From Tupaia tana (taxonomy: Eukaryota; Chordata; Mammalia; Scandentia; Tupaiidae), in NCBI GenBank assembly GCA_026018925.1, contig JAKSZU010000003.1:189941639-190005638 (forward strand): DNA of 64,000 nt, written 5' to 3'. How positions within the stretch are numbered: the stretch's first letter is position 1; each line of letters starts with the position of its first letter. Shown one piece after another: positions 4,867-22,140 of the stretch. The notes below the pieces were generated by a model, which saw only the letters and a list, made by a program, of their open reading frames with translations, ran no database searches and was not told the DNA's origin. The position numbers and the translations under genes were made by a program.

Positions 4867-5126
4867 AGTATTCTATTCCTAAGTATTTATCCTAGAGAAA
4901 TGAGAGCTTATATCTCTATATAAGCTTGAATGTGATTGTCTTAATGACTTCATTTGTAATAACCTAAAACTAAAAATAACTCAAATGTTCATCAATGGAT
5001 AAATGGATAAACATACTATATATGTATATATCTCTATAGAGTGAATACTAGTCAGCAATAAAAAAAGAAATGAATAATTGAAACACACTACAACATGGAT
5101 GAATCTCAAATTAAGTATGCTGTGTG

Positions 5127-5356
5127 GGGCCTAGCAGGTGGGATGGAGGTTAGGGTGCCTGGATCCCATATGACCGGCTGTGCAGTTTGAGTCCCAGACC
5201 TGGAGGCTTGAGGAACACAACAGGAACGTGTGCATGTGTGCCCAAAATACCAGAGGAGAATGGAGAAGGGATCTTCTGGGGAGTGATTTCTCACTTTCTT
5301 TCTCTGTCACCAGTGAGCACATATGCACCAAATAGCAAACTAAATAAGCAAATAAA
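5127..5356 (+). mobile_element. SINE-B inside L1M
   Basis: Diverged relative of SINE-A with head GGGCCTAGCAGGTGGGATGG and body GGAGAATGGAGAAGGGATC. TSD ATGCTGTGTG (5117-5126) versus ATGCTGCATG (5357-5366). Confidence 0.85.
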
Positions 5357-15824: not shown

Positions 15825-16025
15825 TAAAAAAATGTGACGGGATCTACCATACCAGAAATCAAAACATAGCTATAAATATATAGTACTTAAAGCAGAAACT
15901 GACGAATCAGTGAGACATAATAGAGCATCCAGAAACAGGTGCTTACACACATGGATACAGTATATGATAAAGGTTGTACTTCAAAATAGTGACTAAAAGA
16001 TGAACTATTTAATGCATTTTGTTTG
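15825..16025 (+). mobile_element. old L1M ORF2 fragment (first piece)
   Basis: Decayed ORF2 text: ACCATACCAGAAATC, ATAGAGCATCCAGAAACAGG and ATATGATAAAGG occur in L1 order. The element resumes at 16950 and again at 19572, so the three pieces are parts of one L1M split by later insertions. Confidence 0.7.
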
Positions 16026-16202
16026 GGGGCCAGACTGTAGTATTTCAATGCTAATTCAAATGGAACCTATAGGAAAGGTCCGAGATTTGCATCCAGGGAC
16101 ATCCCTCAATACACTGGGCCTATGCTCATGAGTGCCTGTGATTTTTGCATCCAGGGACATCCCTCAATACACTGGGCCTATGCTCATGAGTGCCTGTGAT
16201 TT
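16026..16202 (+). mobile_element. truncated SINE-C with 58-bp tandem duplication
   Basis: The head (GGGCCAGACTGTAGTATTTC) and middle match SINE-C; the TGTTGGGGG core and the tail are missing. Bases 16086-16143 are repeated exactly at 16144-16201 (period 58, no mismatch). Confidence 0.75.
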
Positions 16203-16250
16203 CTTTTTTTGTTCTCCACAACTCTCAGTTCCCTTGACAGCTGTATTTCT

Positions 16251-16530
16251 TTTTCTTTTTCTTTCTTTTTTTTTTTTGGAGAGGTTTTTGCTATAGGGCA
16301 CGTGTGCTCGCCAAACAGACAGAGAGAGACAGAGAGATAGAAAGCAAGAAATCACCCCCCACGGGGGATGGCCACGCCGCAATCCCTTCTCCTCCATTCT
16401 CCTCTCGGGATCTTGGGCACGCACGCACACGCGCCCGGCGTGAGTTTTAAGCCACCGGGTCCGGGACTCGAACCACAGTTGACTATGTGGGAGTCCAGCG
16501 ACATAGCCATTACGCTAACTGCTGGTCCCA
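16251..16530 (-). mobile_element. young SINE-A with intact Pol III boxes
   Basis: Near-consensus copy. On the minus strand the A box TAGCGTAATGG fits TRGYNNARNNG and the B box is GGTTCGAGTCC. The 14-bp TSD ACAGCTGTATTTCT is perfect at 16237-16250 and 16531-16544. The intact boxes make it one of the few copies here that could still be transcribed by Pol III. Confidence 0.95.
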
Positions 16531-16600
16531 ACAGCTGTATTTCTCAAAGCAGAATACATACTACTAATGGTATGCAAGATGGATGAGCTAATTGTTATTT

Positions 16601-16837
16601 AATTTGTCAAAGGGCAGGTGCTCTTGCCATAGAGAATTGGTTTGGGGTAATGATGGTGAGAAGCACCTCCTGGGGGGACTGTCATGTCACAATCTTCTCC
16701 ACGCTCCTCTCAGGACCCTCAATTTGCACACATGCACAAGTGCACAGCTTGTCTCTCAAGTAGCTGGATCCAGGACTCAATGTGCAGTTGGCCATGTGAG
16801 ATTCAGCTGCTTCAACCACCATGCCACTAGCTGACCT
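16601..16837 (-). mobile_element. SINE-B
   Basis: Antisense body CAATCTTCTCCACGCTCCTC and head ACCACCATGCCACTAGCTGAC. Diverged; it sits within the gap of the split L1M. Confidence 0.8.
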
Positions 16838-16949
16838 AAGCATTTTTTATTTTAATATTTTAATGTTATTTTATTATAACATCTATTTATAGCAAGTAAA
16901 ATTCTATTTCAGTAGTGATTTGATATTTTCTTTTACAATAAATTTAAGT

Positions 16950-17115
16950 TAAAAAAAGCAAGTCAAAAGAAAAAATATATGACATCAAAAACATAGGCAA
17001 CAAAAGAAACAAATACATAAATTTCATCAAAAATAAAAAATTTTGTCTTTCAGAAGGTACTATCAAGAGAGTGAAAAAGCAATCCACAGGATAGGAGAAA
17101 ATATTTGTAAATTAT
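16950..17115 (+). mobile_element. old L1M ORF2 fragment (second piece)
   Basis: L1 ORF2 text (TCATCAAAAATAAAAAATTTTG, GTACTATCAAGAGAGTG, GGAGAAAATATTTG) stops at 17115 and continues at 19572 after the younger L1. The final 19 bases are duplicated on the other side. Confidence 0.85.
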
Positions 17116-18621
17116 ATTACAAAGCAGTGATAATCAAAACAGTTTGGTATTGGCACAAAAACAGAAATGAGGACCAATAGAACAGAGTAGAGACCTCAAA
17201 AATAAACCCCAAAATACAGAGCCAGCTCATCTTTGACAAAAAGTACCAGTCAATCCTGTGGGAAAAGGAAAACTCTTTGGCAAATGGTGCTGGAAAAACT
17301 GGGTATCCACCAGCAGAAAGATGAATCTGAACCCCTATCTGTTACCATTAACAAAAATCAACTCAAAGTGGATCAAAGATCTAAACCTAAGACCACAAAC
17401 TATAAAACTATTGGTGGAAAACACTAGGGAAACTCTGGGAGACATTGGGGTAAGCAAAGACTTCTTAAGCAAGACCCCCAAAGCACAGGCAATAATCCCC
17501 AAAATAGACAGGTGGGATTTTATCAGGTTAAGAAGTTTCTGCACAGCAAAGGACAATGTAATTAGTAGGAATCAACAACCCTCAGAATGGGAGAGAGTTT
17601 TTGTTAACTGCACCTCAGATAAGAGACTGATAACCAGAATACACAAGGAACTCAAGCGGCTTACCCAGAAGAAAATGACTGACCCAATTAAGATGGGAAA
17701 TTAGCTGAATAAACAACTCTCTAGAAGACATATGAACAGCCAAAAAGCATATGAAAAAAATGCTCAACATCCCTTATCATAAGGTAGATGCAGATGAAAA
17801 CCACAATGAGATACCACCTACCCCCAGTCAGAATGGCGAAGATTTAAAAAAACAAAAAATGATAAGTGCTGGAGGGGATGTGGTGAAAGGGGAATGCTCC
17901 CACACTGTTGGTGGAAACGTAAATTGGTCCAGCCACTGTGGAGAACAATATGGAGTTTCCTCAAAGACCTTCAAATAGAACTACCATATGATCCAGCAAT
18001 TCCACTCCTAGGTATCTACCCAAAGGACAGGTGAACACTCAGTCAGAAAAGCGCTTACACAAATATATTTATTGCTGCATTATTTATGATTGCTAAGACA
18101 TAGAACCAACCCAAATGTCCACAAAGAGATGAATGGATTGAAAAAGTGTGGCACATATACTCTATGGAATACTATTCAGTCATAAAAAACAATAAGGGCC
18201 TAGAATTTGATAGAAAGTGGATGAATATGGGAGATTTGTTGCTGAGTGAAGCAAGTCAGGCTTCGAAAGAGAGACATTGCATGTCTCCACTTAACATATA
18301 CTGACTTCCACACTCTATGGTAGAATCTGAAAGACTGGAGGACATAAAATCATTAAAAATCGTTATGGACACTAGAGACAAAGTGGAAAGAGAGCGTGGA
18401 AGGGAAAGAACATAGGAAAGTAAATTTGGGGGGAAAATAGAGAGGTAAGACACTGTGGGACACAGATATGGTTTATTATCTACTGATGAGGATGTGTACA
18501 GTATTCTCAACGAGCTGGACTGAGGTGTATATCATGCTGGGTAAAGTCTCTTTATAATCTAAATTATATATAGCAATCGAATGTATGAATAATAATAATA
18601 ATAGTAATAATAAAAGTGTAC

Positions 18622-19287
18622 AGATCATAAATTTCCACACAAGAAATATGCCTTATATTCTGCTCTCAGATCAAAAAACAGGATATTAAAAACACTATAA
18701 ATCTTCTGGGGCTGGCAAGTGGTGTGGTGGTTAAGGTTCTGGACTCCCACATAGCCGACCACAGTTCCAGTCCTGGACCTGGAGGCTTGCTTTCCTACTT
18801 TTCCTTTCTCTCTTTCTGTCTCTCTCTAGTCAAATTAAACAAATAATAACGATGATAATAAGTGAAATAAAATAATTCTTTAAAAATTTTTTAAAAATTA
18901 TAAATCTTCTTTGTATTCTCTATTAATTAGCCCCATCCTGAATGTAGTAAATTATATCTATTGAATTTTGAATAACACCCTTAAATACCTATAGTAAATC
19001 CCAGCCAGTTACCAAATTGCAATGTTTCTTTGTTAGCATTTCACTGACCATTTTGCTAAAAGTTTATTTAGTATGTATCAATATTCATTAGCCTTTAACG
19101 AGTGTACAAATTCACTTTTTAAACATTTTTATCATGATTTTTATTAAGATTCATAAATGAGCTATAATATTTCTTTCTTAATTTTCCAGAAAATTATGTA
19201 AAATGAGGTGTTATTTCTGCTTTATAGTCATATATTTGATTCTATATAGACCATGTTCAATAAAAGTCATCATCAAAATCAAAAAAA
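18622..19287 (+). other. transduced 3' flank of the L1
   Basis: Non-L1, AT-rich sequence between the L1 AATAAT-type end and the AATAAA/poly(A) end. Its source locus elsewhere in the genome should match the two parts around the SINE-D. It holds no gene signal. Confidence 0.65.
18708..18898 (+). mobile_element. SINE-D (short, head-only)
   Basis: tRNA head GGGGCTGGCAAGTGGTGTGG, then GGCTTGCTTTCCTAC, a CT-rich stretch and CAAATTAAACAAATAAT. The SINE-A middle is absent. The 12-bp TSD TATAAATCTTCT is perfect at 18696-18707 and 18899-18910. Confidence 0.9.
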
Positions 19288-19289
19288 GA

Positions 19290-19539
19290 GGGACCAGCAG
19301 TTAGCGTAATAGCTGTGTCGCTGGACTCCGACGTAGTCGACTGTGGTTCGCGTCCCGGACTCAGTGGCTTTATACTCACGCCGGCGCATGTGCGTGCGTG
19401 CCCAAGATCCTGAGAGGAGAATGGAGGAGAAGGGATTGCAGCGTGGCCATCCCCCCTCGGGGGTGATTTCTCGCTTTCTGTCTCTCTGTCTCTCTCTGTC
19501 TGGTGAGCACACACGCCCTATAGCAAAAACCTCTAAAAA
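19290..19539 (+). mobile_element. SINE-A in the poly(A) end of the transducing L1
   Basis: Near-consensus copy; A box slightly changed (TAGCGTAATAG) and B box GGTTCGCGTCC. The 15-bp TSD AAAATCAAAAAAAGA is perfect at 19275-19289 and 19540-19554. Its target was the A-rich end of the L1 insertion, so it is younger than that event. Confidence 0.95.
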
Positions 19540-19571
19540 AAAATCAAAAAAAGAAAATATTTGTAAATTAT

Positions 19572-20485
19572 GTATTTGATAAGAAATTCATAACATAAAA
19601 AGAACTAAAACTCAAAAAAAATCCCTACAACTAAAATAAAATAACATGGTCAGAGACTGGCAAAGAACTTGAATAGACATTTCTCCAAAGAAGATACATA
19701 TGGCCAAGTAGTACATGGAAAGATACTTAACATCATTAATTATTAGGTAAACGCAAATCAAAACCACATGAGATACCACTTTATATCTACTAGGATGGCT
19801 ATTATAAAAATAGATAAATAAAATGGAAAATAACAAGTATTGGTGAGGATTAAGAGAAACCAGAATCCTATGTGTTGTAGGTAGGAATGTCAAATGACAC
19901 AGCCACTATGGAAAATAGTATAGAGGTTCCTAAAAAAATTAAACATAAAATTACCACATGATCCAGAATTTCCACTTCTAGGTATATGTTCAAAAGAAAT
20001 GAAAGCAGGGACTGCAACAGACATTTATACAGCCATATTCACAGCAGCATTATTCATATAGCCAAAAGATGTAAACAATCCAAATACTCATCAGTGGACA
20101 ACTGGACTGACGAATTGTAGTATGTAAATACTGGAATAATATTCAGCCTTGAAAAGGAATGACATTCTGACACATTGCAACACAGAGGACCTTTAAAGCC
20201 ATTTCACTAAGTGAAATAAGCAAGTCACTAATAGACAAATACTGTATGGTTCCACTTATATGAAATCACAGAAATCTACAAAAGTAGAATGATAGTTGCC
20301 AGGGACTAGGGAGGAAAAGGAGAATGTGTGTTATTATTCTATGGGTTAGAAAAATGGGAAAATGAAAAAAGTTCTAGAGCTGGAAGGTGGTGCTATTGTA
20401 TAACAATATAAATATACTTAATGCCACTGAACCTAAAAATGATTAAAATGATAGCCTTTTTGTTCTGTGTATATATATACACATT
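19572..20485 (+). mobile_element. old L1M ORF2 end and 3' UTR (third piece)
   Basis: Picks up exactly where the second piece stopped: GACTTGAATAGACATTTCTCC-like text, GAGATACCACTTTATATC, CAGCAGCATTATTCATATAG and an L1MA/L1MB-like 3' UTR. Confidence 0.88.
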
Positions 20486-20738
20486 TTTTTTTGAGGGAGA
20501 GATTTTAGCTATAGGGCATGTGCACTCGCTGGAGAAAGAGACAGAGAGACAGAAATTGAGAAATCCTCCCCTCATGGCCACACCACAACCCCTTCTCATC
20601 CATTTTCCTCTTGGGATCTTTGGGCACAACCACACATGCACCTAGTGTGAGTTTCAAGCCTTTGGATCTGGGACTCGAACTGTGGTCCACCTTGTGGGAA
20701 TCCAGCTGCCTTAACCATCATGCCACCTGCTGGTCCCC
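20486..20738 (-). mobile_element. SINE-A/B intermediate in L1M 3' UTR
   Basis: Antisense copy GCTATAGGGCATGTGCACTCG to CACCTGCTGGTCCC; GAGTTTCAAGC in place of the SINE-A GAGTTTAAGCC. The L1M 3' UTR continues after it. Confidence 0.88.
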
Positions 20739-20792
20739 TACATTTTCTGTTGTGTATATTTTACCACCATAAAAATATTTTAAAATAGTGAA
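20739..20792 (+). mobile_element. old L1M 3' terminus (fourth piece)
   Basis: TTGTGTATATTTTACCACCA followed by an A-rich end is the terminal sequence of L1MA/L1MB 3' UTRs. Confidence 0.75.
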
Positions 20793-21030
20793 GGACTCAG
20801 CAATAATTCATGAAGGTAGTTCATAAATGAGTGGTATGTCAGACACAAGGTAATGTTCTAATGAATTATTTCATATGAATATCATTTCACATAAAGGTCT
20901 GTACATCATAGCTTTTATTTCTATTTATTTACACCCAAAATCATATTAAAAAAGTCTTAGAACAATGCTGTGTACCTAATATTAGTCATAAATAATTGTG
21001 CAAATATATGAAACCTACTGCACATATAAA
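20793..21030 (+). other. old repeat remnant, L2/MIR-tail-like
   Basis: The phrase CTTAGAACAATGCTGTGTACC with later ATAAATAATTG recalls L2/MIR tails; too decayed to be certain. Confidence 0.35.
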
Positions 21031-21118
21031 TTTTTTTTTTCTTAAAGGGAGACTTTTGTTGTAGGGCATGTGTGTTCACCAGAGAGACAGAGAGAGAGAA
21101 AGTGAGAAATCACCCCCT

Positions 21119-21142
21119 CCCCCCCCCCCCCCCCCCCCCCCC
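21119..21142. repeat. poly(C) run inside SINE
   Basis: Twenty-four consecutive C at the place of the normal CCCCCC/GGGGGG hairpin of the SINE. Confidence 0.95.
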
Positions 21143-21199
21143 GGAGAATGGCCACACCACAATCCCTTCTCCTCCATTCTTCTCTTGGGATTTTGGGCA

Positions 21200-21205
21200 T
21201 GCGCG

Positions 21206-21255
<50 letters not shown>
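21200..21255. repeat. (GC)n(AC)n microsatellite inside SINE
   Basis: Alternating purine-pyrimidine throughout, so it is a candidate Z-DNA-forming tract. Confidence 0.95.
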
Positions 21256-21257
<2 letters not shown>

Positions 21258-21339
21258 GTGAGTTTCAAGCCTGTGGGACTCAAACCGTGATCGGCCATGT
21301 AGGAGTCTCTCAACCACTACATCACCTGCTGGCCTCCAC

Positions 21340-22140
21340 ATATGGATTTTAAAAGTACTTTATTAAGTCCTAGGAACAAAAGAATATACAGGATGGCTGT
21401 GAAAAGATACTATATTAACAGAAAAAAATATGGTACTCAGTTACTAACAGTGAAAAGAGCAGGCTGCATTTAAACTAAGATAATGTTGTTAGTGTCATCT
21501 ACATATATCATTTACTTGAACACATTAAAATCTTATTACCTCGATGGGAAAAATTCTTCCTGCATATTCTAAGAAGACTCCTTCTCTTTAAGCTCATCCC
21601 TACAAACTCTTTATTCCTCTATCTAGAGAAAAAAACAAAACAAAACTCTCTATAAAAGATCACATAGTTCCAATCACTATATAAATCTATCTTTTTATTC
21701 ATATTTTATCTCTTAAATCCCCTTACATTGGTGAACATGACCAGATTTTAAATATCAGCTCTGGTTCCCCCCACCCCCCGAAAAAAAGATTGTCTTAAAC
21801 AGGGCTTTGTTTCTTGATCCTAAAGTCTCTTTCAACATGCCCATGCTTTGAATCTAAGCACTCATGAATTCAGATTATCTAACTTGTAGTTCAAAAAGTT
21901 TTTTGTTTTGTGTCCATAAGTACCTGCCTGAAAGTACAACAGCTGTCTTTTGAAGCTAAAATATGTAACAGCACTCTGATAGCCTATGAATTCCCAATTA
22001 CCACCTTCAAACAACCAAACGAATTTGTGCTTTTCTAACCTAGGTGAGACCACATGACACAGTGGTACAGATTATCTTCAAAACAGTGCATAGTCAATTT
22101 TTGTTGGTTTGCCTTCCACATTTTGTAAAAAGTAGAATGA
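21340..22140. other. unassigned unique DNA
   Basis: No repeat or gene recognised. A short C-run near 21768-21779. Confidence 0.5.

Follow-up and report, generated by a model that had tools for sequence, protein, structure and literature searches.

L1 3′ transduction is already known, and donors without an L1 have already been reported in apes and macaque. The portion of PMC4862182 drawn upon here describes L1 3′ transductions in chimpanzee, orangutan and macaque, with validated transduced lengths of 51–1570 bp, and includes 23 validated cases (13 from macaque, 9 from orangutan and 1 from chimpanzee) whose donor is without an L1 fragment within 5 kb. For human populations, the sections of PMC9311842 used here report L1 3′ transductions with L1 lengths of 8–997 bp and a median of 63 bp, in which a weak L1 end signal is read through to a downstream signal. 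In dogs, 3′ transductions account for about 1.8% of dimorphic L1s, and some sources are common to several insertions, according to the excerpted text of PMC12458276. L1 chimeras are treated in PMC13174262.

The window, which is the whole stretch of 64,000 nucleotides analysed here, belongs to contig C531 of a 2.95 Gb genome and contains an insertion, termed W, that is very probably (at roughly 0.92) an L1 3′ transduction with a target-site duplication. The first-pass annotation had proposed this reading, and it is strengthened by the presence of the extra DNA at two other places: copy A (on contig C864, the reverse complement of L012), where it again follows this L1 3′ end, and locus B (on contig C975, L013), where there is neither L1 nor poly(A). 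W resembles the primate cases, as set out in the portion of PMC4862182 cited above, in combining an L1 with its downstream flank, a 5′ truncation and an A-tail. Unlike those insertions, which the same portion presents as polymorphic and young, W is old, has a whole SINE as cargo and is accompanied by a second copy of the unit elsewhere in the genome. With the human cases in the sections of PMC9311842 used, it would share a weak L1 end signal read through to a downstream one; its ~0.66 kb is long against the median of 63 bp, yet inside the range. The dog insertions, as excerpted from PMC12458276, offer the same outline in a non-primate.

Boundaries and content of the insertion

The target of the insertion is an old L1 on the + strand, the 5′ part of which (16830–17115) is broken at 17115 and resumes on the same strand at 19572–20470. 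The 19-mer GAAAATATTTGTAAATTAT, noted in the first-pass annotation as a perfect repeat around the insert, is exact at both 17097–17115 and 19553–19571, and with one extra base on the left it becomes a perfect 20-bp repeat, AGAAAATATTTGTAAATTAT, with zero mismatches between 17096–17115, where the 5′ part of the old L1 closes, and 19552–19571 (+), where the L1 target-site duplication recurs. The leftmost A of the 20-bp repeat could be a base of the A-tail instead, which gives a duplication of 19–20 bp. When up to 3 mismatches are allowed, the 19-mer has three matches in the window (two exact and one with 3 mismatches) against 0.13 expected, the only exact copies being those at the two ends of the insert, and when 2000 pairs of 81-bp stretches lying 2–3 kb apart were drawn at random, 1 pair shared an exact word of at least 20 bp. 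The 19-mer is not rare genome-wide, with 60 exact places, so that its weight rests on its position at both insert ends.

That the old L1 is interrupted between these points is confirmed by its relatives. Eight comparison loci, which are paralogous old L1 copies fetched by means of the 19-mer, were compared with the flanks joined over 17115/19572, and in three of them (L001, L002 and L004) the alignment runs through the join and well beyond it. The old L1 is thus contiguous in these relatives and the DNA between the two positions is an insertion.

The insert begins with a 5′-truncated L1 (17116–18615, +), which comprises the 3′ part of ORF2 with broken frames and the 3′ UTR. Matches to human ORF2p chains were obtained with two of its frames (E=1.9e-52 and E=8.8e-16); the PDB sequence search was run on 2 of the 6 ORF2 fragments and matched L1 ORF2p with both, and Pfam returned no family for any of the six. 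The L1 has an AATAAA of its own at 18609, just before its end at 18615, and two other window copies of the L1 3′ end stop at the matching position. An Rfam search of 16000–21500 with E up to 0.1 gave a sub-gathering match to mir-297 in a CA repeat as its sole result. L1 relatives with an ORF1 (Pfam PF02994) are found at 784–2816 of the window and at 4930–5319 (−) of L012, with E=1.2e-20 and 2.8e-28. In the window copy the end of ORF1, at about 2660, directly adjoins DNA with 79% similarity to the inserted L1 in its ORF2 end and 3′ UTR, nearly all of ORF2 being missing, and by resemblance we take this element to be a candidate of the HAL1 type (half-L1).

The L1 3′ end is followed directly by non-L1 DNA, and both lie within the one target-site duplication. 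At the junction there is a stretch of 13 nt, GTGTACAGATCAT (18616–18628, +), which is present in W and A and is absent both at B and from the two other L1 3′ ends seen in the window; a short transduction of earlier date is a possible origin. The non-L1 DNA amounts to about 0.66 kb, is AT-rich and has a SINE (SINE1) within it. Its first part (18629–18707, +) ends with the first copy of the SINE1 duplication, SINE1 itself occupies 18708–18898 (+), and the second part (18899–19280, +) runs to a seven-A tail at 19281–19287 (+), which is shortly preceded, where the extra DNA ends, by an AATAAA at 19259–19264. SINE1 is bracketed by an exact 12-bp repeat (18696–18707 and 18899–18910). The region it fills had been left out of the pieces that the first-pass annotation put forward for searching, and proves to be a second SINE with a duplication of its own. 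Outside the two SINEs, no separate duplication was seen in the extra DNA. Together with the contiguity of the old L1 in its relatives, this leaves neither of the refuting findings named in the first-pass annotation in evidence.

The truncated L1, the extra DNA, the AATAAA at 19259 and the A run had all been recognised in the earlier description of the insert, but that description overlooked a tRNA-type SINE, which separates the A run from the downstream copy of the L1 duplication. This element, SINE2 (19290–19539, +), is flanked by a perfect 15-bp duplication, AAAATCAAAAAAAGA, at 19275–19289 and 19540–19554. As the last transduced bases, the A run and the start of the target all fall within this duplication, SINE2 is later than the L1. 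Its divergence is a poor fit to this order and counts against the transduction reading, since SINE2 differs by 7.8% from its family consensus, above what is expected for an element younger than W, whose own changes come to about 4%; 15 window copies of the family span 2.2–9.1% (non-CpG sites), and subfamily differences may explain the high value. The family, which is presumably similar to the colugo CYN family, is a single tRNA-type SINE family with many copies across the window. One of its members, at 16262–16529, is adjoined by two perfect tandem copies of a 58-bp unit (16086–16202).

Copies of the flank elsewhere in the genome

A genome search with the extra DNA, as had been suggested, led to three places. 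With 18899–19274 as the query these were the window, C864 at 93% and C975 at 85%, which were all of the three candidates scored, and the query 18600–18707 found the identical three, again three of three scored candidates. Both pieces are thus present at each place, and no fourth copy of the flank was found with these two pieces, in a search that skips simple repeats and very common words and that more diverged copies could escape.

The match between W and A, at 89% over 880 bp, opens in the L1 3′ UTR, takes in the tail and the 13 nt, continues in the same order through flank and SINE1, and ends beyond the AATAAA. They share the L1 3′ end, the junction between L1 and flank to the base, and the poly(A) region. 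From the same junction in both it follows that the joined L1-flank form once existed in DNA. At B (genome G000, contig C975, about 7405360–7406010) the flank alone matches, starting at AAATTTCCACAC, and the surroundings are different. SINE1 occupies the identical site in W, A and B, so that it was in the flank beforehand and travelled as cargo. Past the AATAAA, B continues without an A run, W has its seven A and A has AAAACAAAAACA 27 nt on; the extra DNA therefore exists elsewhere without an A-tail. The similarity of all three stops in the poly(A) region, and that of B stops also at the L1 junction. Such a three-way split at the poly(A) region is expected if W and A passed through RNA and B did not.

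The expectation that a longer L1 of the same family would lie directly upstream of the donor flank was not borne out, as the inserted-L1 pieces of W and A had no match in the 7.86 kb upstream of B. Across 9.9 kb of B these pieces gave nothing but a 16-bp match far downstream, and the 535 bp upstream of the A-rich tract of B matched itself alone in the genome search. Since donor loci without L1 are reported in the portion of PMC4862182 drawn upon, the absence of such an L1 at B is compatible with 3′ transduction. A source that bears the L1 together with an untailed flank was not found in the genome search, which is counted against the transduction reading, as are the 13 nt missing at B and the failure of any target-site duplication to stand out at A.

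Of ORF2, the L1 of copy A retains 1178 bp, whose best frame holds 11 stops; the sequence then passes abruptly to the 3′ UTR. More than 1 kb is lost at this jump (about 7522 in the reverse complement of L012), with an apparent short shared AGGAAAG. A comparison of 17.4 kb upstream with 70 bp downstream of A, made for a target-site duplication, gave one match with a score of 12, against 9.5–25.5 in 15 controls, and copy A may have lost one end or been inserted without such a duplication. We infer from its A-rich end and the shared poly(A) region that A is a retrotransposed copy as well. As a working source it was rejected, on account of the 11 stops in its 1178 bp of ORF2 and of DNA past the poly(A) region that is unlike that of B.

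Source of the joined L1 and flank

In the transduction reading, transcription of an L1 would have run past the AATAAA of the element (18609) to a second AATAAA some 650 bp on (19259), and target-primed reverse transcription would then have placed a 5′-truncated copy, with the flank, in the old L1, producing the duplication of 19–20 bp. Read-through and reverse transcription are proposed as steps after established L1 biology. W and A would be two retrotransposed copies of one missing source, with B as the donor flank, and the source L1 would at one time have occupied B, in an allele that has been lost, or else have been a lost intermediate copy. An L1 insertion lost from B is, we infer, the simplest reading of the source. 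The DNA shared with B starts at AAT/AAAATTTCC, so that the opposite strand reads TTTT/A, which we take to be a site of the L1 endonuclease type, a weak indication at an A-rich locus.

The intermediate copy deserves separate consideration. The L1 may have taken up the flank from B elsewhere, as a full-length copy that is now missing and was the parent of W and A, so that the flank served as the 3′ end of the element for more than one round; this is a tentative proposal that we hold to be on the unlikely side. The 13 nt missing at B speak for it, as do the private changes outside SINE1 (W 17, A 12 and B 29 of 436; p=0.02), which hint that W and A share a history away from B. When SINE1 is included the support fades, since the 622 flank sites free of gaps then show 26 changes private to W, 29 to A and 38 to B (at 2 sites all three differ), counts that are compatible with an even split (p=0.28); the lack of a fourth flank copy in the genome search weighs against it too. 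On the 13 nt and the p=0.02 we lean slightly towards such an intermediate. It is a more doubtful suggestion that a small L1 lineage adopted the captured 0.66 kb flank, with its whole SINE, as a new 3′ end over more than one round and that its master copy is gone from the genome.

A chimera made at the RNA level, with reverse transcription that began on a polyadenylated transcript of B and switched to L1 RNA, would agree with a locus B that is without this L1 and with the otherwise unexplained 13 nt at the junction; the L1 would never have stood beside the flank. It is nevertheless quite improbable, since the W and A junction is the same to the base at two sites and a chimera plus subsequent copying would be needed.

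A later and separate event, in which a transcript of B was retrocopied into the tail of the L1 and gave rise to the extra DNA, is very improbable. Separate insertion does hold for SINE2, which has its own duplication, and an A-tail does close the extra DNA, but the outer duplication lies beyond that DNA and the identical junction at A led to the rejection of such an event for the extra DNA as a whole. The three similar stretches of DNA might finally be ascribed to segmental duplication among W, A and B, an explanation that is hardly credible and was discarded, as the three cease to be alike at the poly(A) region, and B also at the L1 junction, the flanks are unlike and the DNA upstream of B matched itself alone.

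Age of the insertion and its significance

Returning to transduction from a lost source, the divergence of the copies provides some indication of age as well as a difficulty. At the rates usual for mammals, the private changes of W, about 4% (26/622), presumably represent tens of millions of years. Between W and A the L1 3′ UTR differs at 23/200 positions and the flank without SINE1 at 30/436 (Fisher test, calculated with 30/437, p about 0.06), and this higher divergence in the 3′ UTR than in the flank is counted against the transduction reading.

The sequence-shuffling role that the first-pass annotation had attached to the L1 of this lineage finds no backing beyond the carriage of AT-rich DNA and a SINE. 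No movement of exons was seen in W, A or B, and the mechanism is not a new one. What the locus does provide is an example, in this mammal, of L1 3′ transduction that took a complete SINE along as cargo and in which the flank remains traceable though the source L1 is gone. It also provides one candidate donor locus, B, and one sibling copy, on C864, for the dating of L1 activity.
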